This document shows, piece by piece, positions 19,079-25,472 of a DNA stretch of 44,391 nt. Location of the stretch: positions 1-44,391 of the forward strand of contig JAGXFZ010000124.1 of the NCBI GenBank assembly GCA_024637055.1, in the 5' to 3' direction. Both the position numbers and the translations under genes were made by a program. Origin of the DNA: Gracilibacter sp. (GTDB taxonomy: Bacteria > Bacillota > Desulfitobacteriia > Desulfitobacteriales > Syntrophobotulaceae). Below the pieces are notes generated by a model. That model worked only from the letters and a program-made list of their open reading frames with translations. It was not told where the DNA came from and made no database searches. Position 1 is the first letter of the stretch, and every line of letters begins with the position of its first letter.

Positions 19079-19783
19079 TCACACTCTAAATCTATACCCA
19101 GCACCCCATACGGTTTCAATATACTGAGGATTAGATGGGTCTGTCTCAATCTTCTCCCTTATCCTTGCTATATGTACGGTAATGGTAGCAGAGTCTCCTA
19201 ACGCTTCTAAGCCCCATACACGTTCAAATAATTCTTCCCGTCCAAAAACTCTATTGGGGTTCTGAGTTAGATACATAAGTAAGTCAAATTCTTTCTGAGC
19301 TAGATTCACTTCTGTGTCATGAATAAAAACTCGGCGAGCATCCTTTTCGATTTTTAAACCGCGAATTATTAAGGTATTGCTCCCTTTTAAATCATCCCTG
19401 AACTTAAGTCTTAATCTTTCATAATTAACTATATTAGCTTTTACTCTAGCAACCATCTCTCCTGGGCTGAACGGCTTGGTTATATAGTCATCAGCACCCA
19501 GACTCAACCCTTTGATCTTATCTATTTCTTCCTTTTTAGCAGATACCAGAAGTACAGGTATATCTTTTTCGTCTTTTATCTTACACAGTATCTCCAACCC
19601 ATCCATGCCAGGAAGCATGATATCCAGGATGAGTAGATCAAAATTTTTCTGTCTCAACATATCTAACCCATCCGAGCCATTAGAGCATACCTCAACTTGG
19701 AATTCTGCTACTTCCAAATAGTCTTTCTGTAACTCGGAAATACTCTTATCGTCTTCAATAATTAGAATCCTTTTCATATTCAT
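19079..19783 (-). CDS. OmpR/PhoB-family response regulator
   Basis: A 234-residue regulator. The receiver domain (1-120) contains the acidic pair IEDD, the phospho-acceptor Asp 54 (LLILDIMLPGMDG), VSAKKEE and DDYITKPFSPGE; the winged-helix DNA-binding domain (about 135-234) ends with RIREKIETDPSNPQYIETVWGAGYRF. Its ATG overlaps the kinase stop codon in an ATGA arrangement, so the two are coupled. It is the last gene of the secreted protein-ABC-kinase-regulator operon. The 11-bp-period TGTTTA repeats upstream of that operon are its likely binding site. Confidence 0.93.
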   Translation of the reverse strand: MNMKRILIIEDDKSISELQKDYLEVAEFQVEVCSNGSDGLDMLRQKNFDLLILDIMLPGMDGLEILCKIKDEKDIPVLLVSAKKEEIDKIKGLSLGADDYITKPFSPGEMVARVKANIVNYERLRLKFRDDLKGSNTLIIRGLKIEKDARRVFIHDTEVNLAQKEFDLLMYLTQNPNRVFGREELFERVWGLEALGDSATITVHIARIREKIETDPSNPQYIETVWGAGYRFRV

Positions 19784-21222
19784 TCCCTCATTTGCGATTT
19801 ACTTAGTGAAATCATTATCCCGGTACCCTCATTGCCATGGGAAAGGGCCCATACCTTGCCTCCATGACCCTCGATGATATGTTTGGCTATAGCCAACCCT
19901 AAACCGCTTCCTTTGACCTCACCTCTCGCTATATCTGAACGATAGAAGCGGTCAAAAATGTGTGGGAGATCTTTTTCTTTTATTCCTATGCCGTTATCTC
20001 TAATCTCAATAATTATGCTAGTACTCGTTTCTCGTAGAAATATTTTTATCTCGCCTTGATTCTTATCCATATATTTGAGGGAATTATCGAGTATATTCAT
20101 AATTACTCTTCTCATTCTTTCTTGATCGAGCAAGACATGATATTTCTCTTTCAAGTCGTTTATTAGGGATAATTTAATGTTATGCCTTTCCAGCTCGGGC
20201 TCACTTTCCTCGATACATCTCAGGATATAGTTTTCTACCTCAGTCCTTTCAAAATTAAAGGGAATTTGATTGAGATCCAACTTGGCATAGAGCAAGAGGT
20301 CATCTATCATTTCATCTACCTGCTGGGCTTTTGTATAGATAGTTTTTAGATATCTATCTGTTTTCTCCGGTGAGTTGGCAATTCCATCGAGTATGCCTTC
20401 GACATAGCCTTTGATAGAAGTTACCGGAGTCTTCAGATCATGAGATATACTGGATATAAGCATTTTGCGATTATCTTCAAGTTTTAATTGTTCATTAACT
20501 GAATTCTTTAGTTTTATCCTCATGAGTTCTAAATCCCGACATAATTCCTGAATCTCTTTATCACCTTCCTCAACTATCTCGTAATTAAGATTCCCTCCGC
20601 TGATCTCCGAAGCAGCCTTCTGTAGATTATTAAGAGGACTTAAGATGGTCCTGGAAAACTGACGCGATACATAGATATTCATAAACGCAAAGGATAAGCC
20701 AAATGAAACTGCTATTAAGATGAGGAAGCCTGCTAGTCCGTTTACTCCCTTCTCCAAAGGTGCCATTAACACTATCCTTCCTTGGGAACCGTTCATTAAA
20801 TCAACTTCTATCGTTTGGACTGTATAAGATATACTATCGAGGAGAACAGGTTCTTTTCTACTATCCATCTGTCCCATATCTAAAACTTTAGCTATGTCTA
20901 TTTTGCTAAATGAACTGGTGGAAAATACTAACCTTTCATCCTTTAGTATAAATAGTTCTCCATCTATTCCCGCTATTCTTTCCTGTAGGTATGTTTGAAA
21001 GCTTTTCTCTTCAAGTATTTCAGGTGTCTGTTGTAAATTGCTTTTCTCACTCAATAATTCCAATTTTATTTGATTTAACTTCTGATAATTATCAAATGAT
21101 AAATTAGTATTTGTTACTTTGCTATAGATAAAAAGATAAGCTAACACAAGCAAAGCAGTAATAATTATTGGAATTATTACTGTTGCAGCATTAGCAAAGA
21201 TTACACGTCTATTAAGATTCAT
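19780..21222 (-). CDS. Membrane sensor histidine kinase
   Basis: A 480-residue kinase: membrane helix about 9-34, extracytoplasmic sensor about 35-160, second helix about 163-184, HAMP linker (SPLNNLQKAASEISGGNLNYEI), HisKA domain with phospho-acceptor His 261 (SSISHDLKTPVTSIKGY), and an ATPase domain with N box NILDNSLKYM, G1 RDNGIGI, F box FDRFYRSD and G2 GSGLGLAIAKHI. The sensor resembles no ligand-binding fold I can name. It lies 8 bases after the ABC permease and overlaps the regulator gene, so transporter and two-component system probably work as a unit, for example in response to envelope stress or a peptide; that role is inference. Confidence 0.92.
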   Translation of the reverse strand: MNLNRRVIFANAATVIIPIIITALLVLAYLFIYSKVTNTNLSFDNYQKLNQIKLELLSEKSNLQQTPEILEEKSFQTYLQERIAGIDGELFILKDERLVFSTSSFSKIDIAKVLDMGQMDSRKEPVLLDSISYTVQTIEVDLMNGSQGRIVLMAPLEKGVNGLAGFLILIAVSFGLSFAFMNIYVSRQFSRTILSPLNNLQKAASEISGGNLNYEIVEEGDKEIQELCRDLELMRIKLKNSVNEQLKLEDNRKMLISSISHDLKTPVTSIKGYVEGILDGIANSPEKTDRYLKTIYTKAQQVDEMIDDLLLYAKLDLNQIPFNFERTEVENYILRCIEESEPELERHNIKLSLINDLKEKYHVLLDQERMRRVIMNILDNSLKYMDKNQGEIKIFLRETSTSIIIEIRDNGIGIKEKDLPHIFDRFYRSDIARGEVKGSGLGLAIAKHIIEGHGGKVWALSHGNEGTGIMISLSKSQMRE

Positions 21223-21230
21223 CTTCCCAC

Positions 21231-21983
21231 CTAATACTCTTTTTTATCAAATAGGTAATAACCTGCTGTGAAAAACATTATACCATATCCCAGCATTATC
21301 AGAAGCTGATGTCCAATTCTACTAAAGGGGAATGAACTTGCCAGCCATAAATTGTACCAATCAAGCTGGGAGGTTATGAATAAGCTGGAATATTGAGAAA
21401 AGAGCACCGCTCCAGCTTTGAGAATAAGAAATCCCAAAATCGACACAAAGAATACCGATGTACCGTTTTTAAATATGTTGGCTAAAAAGACTATTCCTAA
21501 AGCCAATACTATCATTGGTATTAGACTTACACTATACGACAAGACAATCTTGAAAAATCCGGCTACCGTAGCTGAATTGGCGTTGAATAAAAAACCTGCT
21601 AGCAAAGAAAACGCGAAAAGAACAAACAAGTTAAATAGGATAAAGATAACAATAGTAGTTACTTTCGCAGTAAAAATCTTGAATCTGCTAACCGGCCTTG
21701 TTAAGGTAACTCTCATCATATTGTTGGAGAATTCACTCGAGAAACAATCGATAGCTACTAAGGCTGTTAAAAGTGGTAGGATGGTGTTGACTACTACCGA
21801 TAAGACGAGGATAGGGAATTCAACGCTACCTACCCCTCTAAGCCCAAATCCAGTTCTCATCCCCACGATGATAAGCTGTCCAACAACTATGACAGCGAGG
21901 GAAATAAAAATGGCTACCATTACTTTTTTCTTTTTATATAATTTCTCTATTTCATTGATTAGTGCTGCTTGGAACACGGCCAT
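21231..21983 (-). CDS. ABC-2-type transporter permease
   Basis: A 250-residue membrane protein with about six helices (VMVAIFISLAVIVVGQLIIVG; FPILVLSVVVNTILPLLTALVAI; IVIFILFNLFVLFAFSLLAGF; and others), starting with a short cytoplasmic amphipathic stretch (FQAALINEIEKLYKKKK) common in ABC-2 exporters of the BcrB/NatB type. I choose the ATG at 21983, preceded by AGGTGGAG, rather than 21998. The start lies inside the end of the ATPase gene (32-base overlap). It is the membrane partner of that ATPase. Confidence 0.85.
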   Translation of the reverse strand: MAVFQAALINEIEKLYKKKKVMVAIFISLAVIVVGQLIIVGMRTGFGLRGVGSVEFPILVLSVVVNTILPLLTALVAIDCFSSEFSNNMMRVTLTRPVSRFKIFTAKVTTIVIFILFNLFVLFAFSLLAGFLFNANSATVAGFFKIVLSYSVSLIPMIVLALGIVFLANIFKNGTSVFFVSILGFLILKAGAVLFSQYSSLFITSQLDWYNLWLASSFPFSRIGHQLLIMLGYGIMFFTAGYYLFDKKEY

Positions 21984-22695
21984 TTCTCTCCACCTCACTT
22001 ACAAAGTAATTCTCCAAAGTAGCATAGTTTTGAAGTATGTTATCCGTACGGTCAACATTAAGCATTTTACCGTTATAAATGACCCCGATGCGGTCACAAG
22101 TTAATTCTACGTCATGTATTAAATGGCTGGAGATAAAAAATGTCGTCTTCTCTTTTTCCGCTAGAAGCATGATAAGTTTACGAATATCGATCATTCCTTC
22201 GACATCTAAGCCATTAAGGGGTTCATCAAGAATCAGAATCTTTGGTCTGGAAATTATAGCAGCAGCCAAGCCTAAGCGTTGCTTCATCCCTAACGAAAAC
22301 TTTCTAGGTTTTTCATGTTTAAACTTAATCATCCCTGTAATTTCCAGAACCTCATCTATTCTTTGATCATCTACTCCTGGGTAATAACGGGAAAACTGTT
22401 TCAAATTTTCATAGGCACTAAGGAACGGAAAAGAATCTGCTACTTCTATGATACACCCAACTTCCGCCATGGCCTTTTCATATTCTTCCGTGATACTATG
22501 TCCAAAAATCCTGACATCTCCGCTATCGGCGCTGATAAGGCCTGTCATGATTTTCATGGCTGTTGTTTTCCCCGCACCGTTAGGGCCAAGAAAACCAAAA
22601 ATATCTCCTTCATAGATATCGAGGTTGATATCTAAAATCCCGCGGCCGTTTGGATATACCTTAGTTAAATCTTTTATTTCAATGACTTTATTCAT
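21952..22695 (-). CDS. ABC transporter ATP-binding protein (BcrA-like)
   Basis: A 247-residue ATPase with Walker A GPNGAGKT (37-44), signature FSLGMKQRLGLA (from 133), Walker B ILILDEP (153-159) and H-loop SSHLIHDVE. The Q-loop position reads CIIEVADSFPFLSAYENL, with Glu in place of Gln, as is common in the bacitracin-exporter (BcrA) branch. It is translated with the overlapping permease gene. It probably energises export or release of an envelope-active molecule; the substrate is unknown. Confidence 0.9.
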   Translation of the reverse strand: MNKVIEIKDLTKVYPNGRGILDINLDIYEGDIFGFLGPNGAGKTTAMKIMTGLISADSGDVRIFGHSITEEYEKAMAEVGCIIEVADSFPFLSAYENLKQFSRYYPGVDDQRIDEVLEITGMIKFKHEKPRKFSLGMKQRLGLAAAIISRPKILILDEPLNGLDVEGMIDIRKLIMLLAEKEKTTFFISSHLIHDVELTCDRIGVIYNGKMLNVDRTDNILQNYATLENYFVSEVERNGRVPSSTNQ

Positions 22696-22722: not shown

Positions 22723-22746
22723 GCTGCCGGGAATAACCCCGGCAGC
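22723..22746 (-). promoter_or_regulatory. Intercistronic hairpin between secreted-protein and ABC genes
   Basis: GCTGCCGGG pairs perfectly with CCCGGCAGC across a six-base loop, between the secreted protein stop and the ATPase ribosome site. The minus strand has no U-tract after it, so it is more likely a processing, stabilising or partial attenuation site that sets the ratio of the abundant secreted protein to the transporter. Confidence 0.55.
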
Positions 22747-22787: not shown

Positions 22788-24026
22788 TTAGTCAAACACT
22801 CTACTGAACATAGAATCGTAAAGCACATTCCCACTATCCTGATTGATATGGAAGTTTACTTTTCCTAAATACTCATCAAGGTAGATGTTTACATTTGTTG
22901 TGTTTCCCGCTTCAGTAGAGTATTCAAAATTGGCTTGACGTTTGTCATTCTCAAAGTTGGCATCAAATTTAAACTCTTGAGATATAGCTGCATATTGTTC
23001 ATAATCAGTTCTATATTCCTCATAGTATCTACCTACAATAGAGCTATCATCAATATTCGTAATTTCTACAAACCGCTCGCCAATTTTAACGTATTTTCCG
23101 TCCTTCTCAATGAGAATATCATTTTTGAATAGTCCTTGAAATTTTTCGGGATTATTGATTTCTGGTCCATAGCCTGGTCTTTCAACGTCGTTTACGACCT
23201 TCTTGCCAGTTAAGTCGGGTTTCATCACTTCAGTGTTATTGATATCGCTCATCTTCATTAAGACTTCAAAACTAAGCTCATGTGTCTGCCCTTGTTTATC
23301 TTTACCGGAAAGTATTGCTGTTCCAAGCATGCTCTCCATTAGACCATCTGAGTTTATTAATGATTTACCACTGACTTCTTTGACGAAAATATCTTGGGTC
23401 AAGTGAGGTAAAGCAGACTGTCTACCATTGAATTCTTGTTTCAGCTGAAAAGATGACACCGCATTTATCAAGGCAGGTATCTGCATTTCAGACAAGGAGC
23501 CTGATATTTCTTTACTCCCATCTGGATTTTCCTTAACCATAACATGATCTTTCAGGCTTCCCACTACTGCATCCATAATTCTTTCAACATCTTCGGCACC
23601 TTGTTCATCGAAAGGATTCACAAAGTTAGTTGGGGAAGATTCACTGATAAGCTCCGTTACATAGTAGGTGTCTTGATCTTCGTTCCACCTAATTCTCACC
23701 TTGTCATCTGAATAATTATAGGAATTATAATTATCACCATTAATACTTTTCTGATTTGAGAGACTTTCTTGAGTATTATTGTCTCTATCGATTTTGCTAA
23801 CATCGTTGCTGGACATAAGTGTTTCACCGTTATTCTTAACTTCCATCGAAATGTCTATTGTGAAACTATCCAGCTCCTCGCTACATTTCTCCGCAGTTGT
23901 CTTTAGCCCATCTTTAAGCTGTTCGTAGCCGCTCTTACTAACAATATCAGCCAGGGCCGTAGACGCAAACAGTAAGGCACCGATAGAAAAACTTATCAGC
24001 ATTACTGTTTTCTTCTTCAACTTCAT
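22788..24026 (-). CDS. Secreted protein of unknown function, first gene of the ABC/two-component operon
   Basis: A 412-residue protein that I do not recognise. It has a classical signal peptide (basic MKLKKK, hydrophobic VMLISFSIGALLFAS, cleavage probably after ALA at residue 26) and no lipobox, so it is predicted released or loosely surface-bound. The mature part is acidic, rich in Asn, Ser and Asp, has one Cys (48) and reads as beta-rich segments (SFTIDISMEVKNNGETLMSS; VRIRWNEDQDTYYVTELI). The alternation recalls LolA/LppX-like lipid-binding folds, but this is only an impression. AAGGAG precedes the ATG. Its place before the ABC, kinase and regulator genes suggests it is the output or the sensory partner of that system. 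Confidence 0.8.
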   Translation of the reverse strand: MKLKKKTVMLISFSIGALLFASTALADIVSKSGYEQLKDGLKTTAEKCSEELDSFTIDISMEVKNNGETLMSSNDVSKIDRDNNTQESLSNQKSINGDNYNSYNYSDDKVRIRWNEDQDTYYVTELISESSPTNFVNPFDEQGAEDVERIMDAVVGSLKDHVMVKENPDGSKEISGSLSEMQIPALINAVSSFQLKQEFNGRQSALPHLTQDIFVKEVSGKSLINSDGLMESMLGTAILSGKDKQGQTHELSFEVLMKMSDINNTEVMKPDLTGKKVVNDVERPGYGPEINNPEKFQGLFKNDILIEKDGKYVKIGERFVEITNIDDSSIVGRYYEEYRTDYEQYAAISQEFKFDANFENDKRQANFEYSTEAGNTTNVNIYLDEYLGKVNFHINQDSGNVLYDSMFSRVFD

Positions 24027-24100
24027 ATGCTCAACTCCTTAAGTAATATATTTTTTAGAAGCTCCTGACTATATTCTAACCCGTAGGTCTTGATAATCTG

Positions 24101-24128
24101 TAAACAGATTCTAAACAAATTATAAACA
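24101..24128 (-). promoter_or_regulatory. Three 11-bp-spaced TGTTTA repeats, likely response-regulator box
   Basis: TAAACA on the plus strand (TGTTTA on the minus) starts at 24101, 24112 and 24123, exactly 11 bases apart. OmpR/PhoB-family regulators bind such phased direct repeats (known examples are PhoP and WalR boxes with N5 spacers). A possible -10 (TAGAAT) lies about 16 bases beyond a weak -35 area that adjoins the repeats, as in activated promoters. The repeats lie 75-102 bases before the secreted protein ATG and abut the stop of the M20 gene. Confidence 0.65.
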
Positions 24129-24129
24129 A

Positions 24130-25314
24130 TTACAGCCTTCCCAACCAATGCTTGCCTTTTCTGAGTTCTCTTTGCATTCCCTCCAGAAGTTTTTGATCTG
24201 ATAGTATGTCCCATCCAGTTAGCGCTAAGGCTTTTACTGCCAGTGAAAGTACTCCCTTCCCATCATCTGAGAGTGCGGCTTTCATGAACTCTAATGTATG
24301 AGGCAACTCTTGTCCTTTACCCATCTTAAGATAGGGATGGATAGTCGGGACAACATGACTGATATTTCCCATATCGACTGATCCCATCATCGTCTGTGGA
24401 GGTTCAATATCATCAATGCCCAATTCTTGTAAGTTATCTCTAAAACGTCCAGCAAGAACACTGTTACTTTTCATCTCATGATAGGAGTTTTCATAGTATT
24501 TCCAGGACATCTGTGCTCCGACTCTACCGGCTGCTTTACTTGCTAAGTCTAGAAACTTCTGCCGGTTTCTGTTCAAGACGTCCCTAGTTGCAGCTCTTAA
24601 ATAGAATCTAGCTACTGCCTTATCGGGAACTATATTTGGTACTTTTCCACCTTCTACAATAATACCGTCTATTCTTTCTGAATTAGACAATTTGCGTTTT
24701 AACTTCGATAGCATTTCAAAAAGTATAAGCATAGCATCAAGAGCATTTACTCCTGAACTCTCTGAGATAGCCATATGCCCAGCTTTTCCATAGAAAGTTA
24801 TCTCCAGAGCATCAAGAGCCAAGCTGGATATCTCGGGCACATTGCAGCTTCCAGGGTGGAACATCAGAGCCGCATCCATATCTTTAAAAACTCCCTGCTC
24901 TACCAATACAACTTTCGCGCCACTCGATTCTTCTGCAGGGCTACCTACGACTACTACCTCTCCGACAAGATTGGAGATACTACTTAGGACGACTGCTGCT
25001 CCAACGCTGGCTGCTCCAATCAAGTTATGCCCACACCCATGTCCAATCTCAGGTAATGCATCATATTCTGCCAATAAAGCTATCTTTGGTCCTTTATACT
25101 TCCCTTGGAAGCTAGCTAGGAAAGAAGTCTCAATATCAGCCAACGGTTTCTCTATTATAAATCCTCTATTACCCAAGAAATCGGTAAGTATCTTCTGAGC
25201 AAAATACTCTTTATACCCTTCTTCTGGGTTATTGCCTATTTCGGAAGCAAGTTCCCATATCTCTTCTTGGAGAGAGTGAGCTATTTCTATCATTTTACTT
25301 TTATGTTCTTCCAT
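24130..25314 (-). CDS. M20-family amidohydrolase/peptidase
   Basis: A 394-residue metal hydrolase of the M20D type (aminoacylase, p-aminobenzoyl-glutamate hydrolase or Xaa-Arg dipeptidase relatives). Metal-site motifs are LLAEYDALPEIGHGCGHN, PAEESSGAK and MFHPGSC; the dimerisation lid is inserted from about residue 165 (FYGKAGHMAISESSGVNALDAML). It probably hydrolyses an N-acyl amino acid or a dipeptide in the cytoplasm, as no signal peptide is present. The start is uncertain: the track uses a TTG at 25374 without a ribosome site; I prefer the ATG at 25314, after GGGTGTGG. It is monocistronic or weakly linked to cwlD, 158 bases upstream. Confidence 0.85.
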   Translation of the reverse strand: MEEHKSKMIEIAHSLQEEIWELASEIGNNPEEGYKEYFAQKILTDFLGNRGFIIEKPLADIETSFLASFQGKYKGPKIALLAEYDALPEIGHGCGHNLIGAASVGAAVVLSSISNLVGEVVVVGSPAEESSGAKVVLVEQGVFKDMDAALMFHPGSCNVPEISSLALDALEITFYGKAGHMAISESSGVNALDAMLILFEMLSKLKRKLSNSERIDGIIVEGGKVPNIVPDKAVARFYLRAATRDVLNRNRQKFLDLASKAAGRVGAQMSWKYYENSYHEMKSNSVLAGRFRDNLQELGIDDIEPPQTMMGSVDMGNISHVVPTIHPYLKMGKGQELPHTLEFMKAALSDDGKGVLSLAVKALALTGWDILSDQKLLEGMQRELRKGKHWLGRL

Positions 25315-25472
25315 GCCACACCCGCTTTTTATATTTTGTTGTTTATAAAAATAATCCCGAAATTCACTATGCAAATGTAGTTCAGAACCAGAAGGTTCCT
25401 GAATCCATTTCTAGTAAATATTCGAGATTAGTACATTTTTCCCTTTTATTTAATGAATAATGTTAGTATTCC

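Follow-up and report, generated by a model that had tools for sequence, protein, structure and literature searches.

The window analysed here is a 44,391-nt stretch of DNA from the 2.58-Mb genome of a Gracilibacter species, and it carries on its minus strand an operon of five genes, which is preceded by an M20 peptidase gene (24130-25374) and a 103-bp intergenic region. The first gene (22788-24026) encodes a secreted protein of 412 aa. It is followed by genes for a BcrA/LanF-like ABC ATPase (21952-22695), an ABC-2 type permease (PF12730; 21231-21983), a sensor histidine kinase with HAMP, HisKA and HATPase_c domains (19780-21222) and a response regulator of the OmpR/VanR/YycF type (19079-19783), all on the same strand, in agreement with an earlier note on this sequence, and in an order that is conserved among relatives. 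The best model for the ATPase is the lantibiotic-protection model TIGR03740 (NCBIfam), matched with 198 bits (E 1.6e-58) and thus below the cutoff of 309.75. The single permease encoded between the ATPase and kinase genes comprises 250 aa and lacks a large extracytoplasmic domain; its gene overlaps that of the ATPase and most likely starts at ATG 21983 rather than at GTG 21998, where the longest open reading frame begins, because relatives carry a stop codon just upstream. The adjoining kinase has two hydrophobic segments, at about residues 14-32 and 167-185, with an extracytoplasmic loop of about 130 residues between them, and its gene shares a 4-nt overlap with that of the OmpR-type regulator. 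BceAB-type modules combine a 10-TM permease containing a large extracytoplasmic domain with a kinase that has no extracytoplasmic sensor. We rejected an assignment to this type, given the short permease without a large hydrophilic insert and the long segment between the hydrophobic regions of the kinase.

The secreted protein has a signal peptide (residues 1-26) with a hydrophobic segment (residues 8-26) and a cleavage-like site (TALA|D). A lipobox is absent from the window copy and from all of the 39 family members examined. A search of Pfam returned no match to the window protein and that of NCBIfam nothing meaningful, bearing out the view that it belongs to no recognised family. All homologues share an N-domain (about residues 28-285) with the motifs GYxxxKxALK, DNG, DG and SGxDxxGxxH, which is followed in the order-level members and in two more distant loci (L112 and L117) by a C-domain (about residues 286-412). 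The family is mostly acidic, with a median net charge of -18, a value of about -30 for the window copy and values near 0 in two members, a property that would suit cationic peptides. The closest named relative found, Gracilibacter sp. BRH_c7a, has a copy that is 77% identical to that of the window.

Lipid carriers of the LolA/LppX type fold into an incomplete beta-barrel covered by a helical lid. Such a ligand-carrier fold, envisaged in the earlier note for the secreted protein, found no support. When the secreted protein was compared by hhalign with a DUF6612 alignment made from the fetched genomes, the sole lipid-carrier family included in these profile comparisons, the probability was 0.4% and the score fell within the range of unrelated controls; moreover, none of the Pfam carrier families was detected in the homologues at E<0.01. 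DUF7537 matched 4 of 27 members, with a best E of 8.6e-5 (Pfam), a similarity of uncertain relevance. A profile search of solved structures with a deep alignment of the family yielded nothing (best E 0.29). AlphaFold2 models of the window and L032 sequences reached mean pLDDT values of only 38 and 42, with a helix and three subsequent long strands as the only parts to attain about 60-73, a confidence too low to support a fold, and Foldseek searches with these models gave no match at E<0.001 and a list that is not meaningful. No relatives were found in the viral contigs or the plasmids searched. A true DUF6612 protein is encoded elsewhere in the window's genome (G000:C99:13313-14068).

Homologues of the secreted protein are present in 41 of 61 relative genomes, representing 14 of 21 genera, and permease orthologues (at least 59% identity) have an identical distribution over these 41 genomes. 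Each of the 35 order-level loci with sufficient sequence (the window and 34 other genomes) keeps the five genes in the same order, with the regulator gene placed after a 931-bp gap in L053. The M20 peptidase and amidase genes located 5' of the window operon have counterparts at this position in just a few of the compared loci, indicating that the five-gene block is a unit in its own right and not just part of a larger syntenic region. Outside the order, the family is sparse and was detected in 8 further genomes out of 399 from the phylum, plus one marginal case. Five of these eight loci (L112, L114, L115, L117 and L119) show the five-gene arrangement, with two secreted proteins in L117 and with the ATPase in L112 and L114 read from a gap of matching size 5' of the permease gene, as overlapping frames had been filtered. 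Two others (L113 and L118) contain the ABC pair and lack an adjacent kinase of the operon's type. The ABC pair thus adjoins the distant homologues in seven of the eight loci, the exception being L116, where the secreted protein stands alone, so that the survey of linkage came out mostly in favour of the self-contained module that had been proposed. The envelope role suggested for it in the earlier note is likewise supported. In three genomes of a single genus (L061-L063), a second, shorter paralogue of the secreted protein is accompanied by the ABC pair without a kinase. The secreted proteins are an undescribed family in a nearly exclusive partnership with one ABC pump, and a literature search retrieved no paper on this operon. 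The marginal homologue (L234:6247-8783; E 4e-4), seen in a single genome out of 399, has no obvious signal peptide and lies directly before a kinase and a regulator gene, without an ABC pair.

Upstream of the operon, three TGTTTA repeats (24123-24128, 24112-24117 and 24101-24106, minus strand) make up an operator (24101-24128), whose first base is 24128, so that the earlier note had placed the end of its interval correctly. The exact 11-bp period reported there was reproduced, with a score of 18 out of 18 as compared to at most 14 when this 160-bp region was shuffled 200 times (first order). Among the 34 five-gene loci, all but one (33/34) score at least 13 of 18. The mean best score is 15.6/18 at the 11-bp spacing versus 10.4-11.7 at spacings of 7-10 and 12-15, and 23 of the 34 loci reach at least 15 at 11 bp, a level that no locus attains at the remaining spacings between 7 and 15. 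Many orthologues carry TGTTAA as the middle repeat. In a genome-wide scan of 83 genomes, we obtained about 70 matches versus 1 for a reversed-pattern control, with one site per genome in most cases and with the site of the operon itself as the only one in the window's genome. Judged by these comparisons, the three phased repeats constitute a genuine phylogenetic footprint. Outside the order, the scores of the five-gene loci differ (17 in L112, 13 in L114, L115 and L119, and 11 in L117), and the association of the operator with the two-component genes is therefore firm only within the order and in L112. The paralogues in L061-L063, which lack the two-component system, score 9-10, the level of shuffled sequences.

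A probable -10 box (TAGAAT, 24073-24078, minus strand) is located 22 nt past the last repeat and conserved as TAgAATA in an anchored alignment of 29 loci, in which the upstream regions share the promoter pattern AtagTTTATAaTTTGTTtAtAatcTGTTTAg.GAAA.TCAAGAcc....ggtTAgAATA. A Sigma-H promoter was considered and rejected, as its -35 element is not conserved. Since the operator lies just upstream of the promoter and a good -35 element at 17 bp from the -10 box is absent, the site would suit an activator, and its position and co-occurrence with the operon suggest that it is bound by the operon's own regulator. In about 20 of the 29 operon promoters, the palindrome GGAAGCTTCC or a close variant follows just 3' of the -10 box, with equivalents in L032-L060 and a degenerate one at about 24055-24066 of the window; it is perhaps a second operator, and its exact 10-mer occurs twice in the genome from which the window derives.

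A second conserved element, the stem-loop GCTGCCGGGG-TTAT-TCCCGGCAGC (22723-22746, minus strand), is situated between the genes of the secreted protein and the ABC pair and lacks a U-tract in gene direction. Nearly all loci have a strong hairpin in this gap, mostly of the form CTGCCGGG...CCCGGCAG, with a median z of -4.3 relative to shuffles and values below -3 in 29 of 34 loci; in L060, no hairpin was found between the secreted-protein and ATPase genes. The stem sequences are unrelated in L039, L046, L048, L051 and L059, indicating that the structure is kept rather than the sequence. A reading of 22723-22746 as a plus-strand terminator was set aside, because the hairpin is conserved in gene direction without a U-tract that follows it consistently across loci. 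The presence of a strong hairpin after the first gene suggests that the secreted protein is made in excess, and the simplest inference is that transcript processing or attenuation at this site would raise the level of the first product above those of the pump and the sensor. The idea that the secreted protein represents the main output, put forward in the earlier note, is made plausible in this way.

The operator had been taken to be the operon's own. It is indeed present 5' of the operon but not private to it in all genomes, as it recurs in one genus (g12) at two further conserved places. One of them precedes an operon for an ATPase, an HlyD protein and a MacB/FtsX exporter (MacB/LolCE-like; L146, L147, L203, L205, L206 and L207), with a gene for UppP/BacA located 3' of the exporter operon in several of these loci. 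The other precedes a gene for a 44-aa membrane peptide (MEGLDFLLTAICFSVLGYGLCYMTLSVNHKS...; L142-L145, L204, L208, L211, L212, L215 and L218). In addition, the L061-L063 loci contain, on one strand, a gene for an UptA-like undecaprenyl phosphate transporter, the genes for the secreted protein, the ATPase and the permease, and a gene similar to those for PAP2 undecaprenyl-diphosphatases, with UptA-like and PAP2 family scores (NCBIfam) below the curated equivalog cutoffs; this layout is reminiscent of BcrABC with an added carrier flippase. Together, the UptA and PAP2 neighbours, the UppP gene behind the exporter operon and the lantibiotic-protection-like ATPase point to peptides acting on the lipid II cycle as the target of the system. 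These data provide the operon with a defined operator together with a small regulon, and they suggest a link to the protection of the undecaprenyl carrier in a little-studied order of anaerobes, which is probably the Desulfitobacteriales, to judge by the one relative with a name.

No system of exactly this composition was found, as the earlier note had stated, but a related one has been described, namely the CprABC-RK operon of Clostridioides difficile with its adjacent lipoprotein CD1348 (PMC5786555). CprABC-CprRK and related LanFEG resistance operons, which are characterised by induction by lantibiotics and resistance to them, comprise a LanF/BcrA-class pump, which the pump of the window resembles, and likewise a short permease, a co-encoded kinase with an extracytoplasmic domain and an OmpR-type regulator, and the gene arrangement is also similar in that an additional extracytoplasmic protein is encoded next to the pump. 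However, there are two different 6-TM permeases (LanE/LanG type) in the Cpr system and only one here, so that the operon does not strictly qualify as a Cpr operon. Furthermore, the additional protein is devoid of a lipobox and encoded by the first gene of the operon, placed behind the operator, whereas CD1348 is a lipoprotein and was reported as not induced. BcrABC, which together with BacRS mediates bacitracin resistance, consists of one ATPase, one short permease and a phosphatase. The window operon has the same ATPase and permease complement, and a PAP2 undecaprenyl-diphosphatase-like gene follows in the paralogous loci without two-component system, but BcrABC includes no secreted protein and the window operon no phosphatase gene. 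LanI proteins act alongside LanFEG in lantibiotic immunity, again combining an extracytoplasmic protein with a LanF-like pump and a two-component system. By contrast, no biosynthesis genes are seen adjoining the window operon, the secreted protein lacks a lipobox, and the LanI models in Pfam and NCBIfam show no family match to it. In NosDFY, finally, the gene for a secreted protein is followed by those for an ABC-2 type ATPase and permease, a likeness in gene order that does not extend to the copper/nitrous oxide context, which is missing in the window operon.

The operon most likely resembles Cpr/Bcr-type envelope-defence operons in its action and would work by positive autoregulation. For the more specific reading, an autoregulated defence module against peptides attacking the lipid II cycle that is comparable to the Cpr and Bcr operons but possesses a new extracytoplasmic partner, we see an even chance. 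The kinase may sense an antimicrobial peptide, or the resulting stress in the lipid II/undecaprenyl carrier cycle, through its extracytoplasmic domain, and the phosphorylated regulator could then bind the three repeats side by side and activate the promoter. The BcrAB/LanFEG-like pump would clear the peptide from the membrane, while stabilisation or truncation of the first-gene transcript by the hairpin would provide the secreted protein in excess. This protein would function outside the cell alongside the pump as its partner in envelope defence, most likely by binding the peptide or a lipid-bound complex and either barring it from the target or passing it on, a role that may be likened to that of LanI next to LanFEG. 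Counterpoints are that the additional operator targets are confined to one genus, with a single site in the window's genome, that the NCBIfam scores of the ATPase, UptA-like and PAP2 proteins fall short of the curated cutoffs, that two family members have a net charge near 0, and that the distant homologue in L116 lacks an ABC neighbour.

The constancy of the secreted protein, ATPase and permease as a core, with or without two-component genes (L061-L063, L113 and L118), also fits a different view, in which the transporter would depend on the secreted protein as a mechanical partner or as a shuttle, in the way that NosFY depends on NosD. The pump would then either act on this protein or pass an endogenous lipid or peptide to it, leaving only the expression level to the two-component system. 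Among bacterial ATPases with a solved structure, NosF is indeed one of the closest, but the exporter that shares the operator, UppP and the neighbouring UptA/PAP2 genes rather indicate defence and carrier recycling, and we regard this alternative as rather unlikely. Similarly doubtful is the notion that the three proteins make up an ABC machine of a separate class, in which an obligate extracytoplasmic partner that is free to diffuse acts on undecaprenyl-linked intermediates or on peptides bound to them, and to which the two-component system and the small membrane peptide contribute add-on control.

The secreted protein could instead serve mainly as a co-sensor, capturing a ligand extracellularly for presentation to the kinase, in the manner of RseB- or LiaX-type accessory proteins. 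In most loci it is encoded in the same operon as the kinase, and the marginal homologue in L234 immediately precedes a kinase-regulator pair without any ABC genes. However, this match is weak and seemingly devoid of a signal peptide, and several homologues (L061-L063 and L118) have the ABC pair without an adjacent kinase of the operon's type. The kinase therefore cannot be the general partner of the family, making a primary co-sensor function unlikely. Even less probable is a scenario in which WalR or another general regulator uses the operator, while the regulator encoded in the operon has its sites in other places. The WalR consensus, one of the OmpR-family boxes and quoted as TGTWAH-N5-TGTWAH (PMC9210968), has the same 11-bp period and a similar half-site, from which TGTTTA departs at position 5, and the TGTTAA middle repeat of many orthologues adds to this resemblance. 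Yet the site is rare in the genomes scanned, lies at the promoter of the very operon to which the regulator gene belongs and is missing 5' of the paralogues without two-component genes.

Further observations concern the operator sites outside intact operons. At L201:674-824, we identified a relic in which the operator, the promoter and the first codons of the secreted-protein gene are kept and the rest of the operon is gone. Searches of Rfam gave no match for the L142-L145 leaders and no credible match for the operon and the operator targets. Transcripts that start at the operator would contain a long hairpin, invariant in its AGACGUG loop (e.g. GAGCGGTAAGCCCAGACGTGGGTATTGCCGCTC), which forms the leader of the 44-aa peptide gene in L142-L145, L204, L208 and L215 and apparently occurs without this gene in L210 (near 6089) and L216 (near 2961). 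The hairpin in L210 has a T-run on its 3' side and may, for this reason, correspond to a free small RNA. In the same genome, the operator is located directly 5' of an agmatine deiminase gene (L210:2087-3130), and an agmatine deiminase gene follows the 44-aa peptide gene in several other genomes, suggesting a possible link of the operator to polyamine metabolism.
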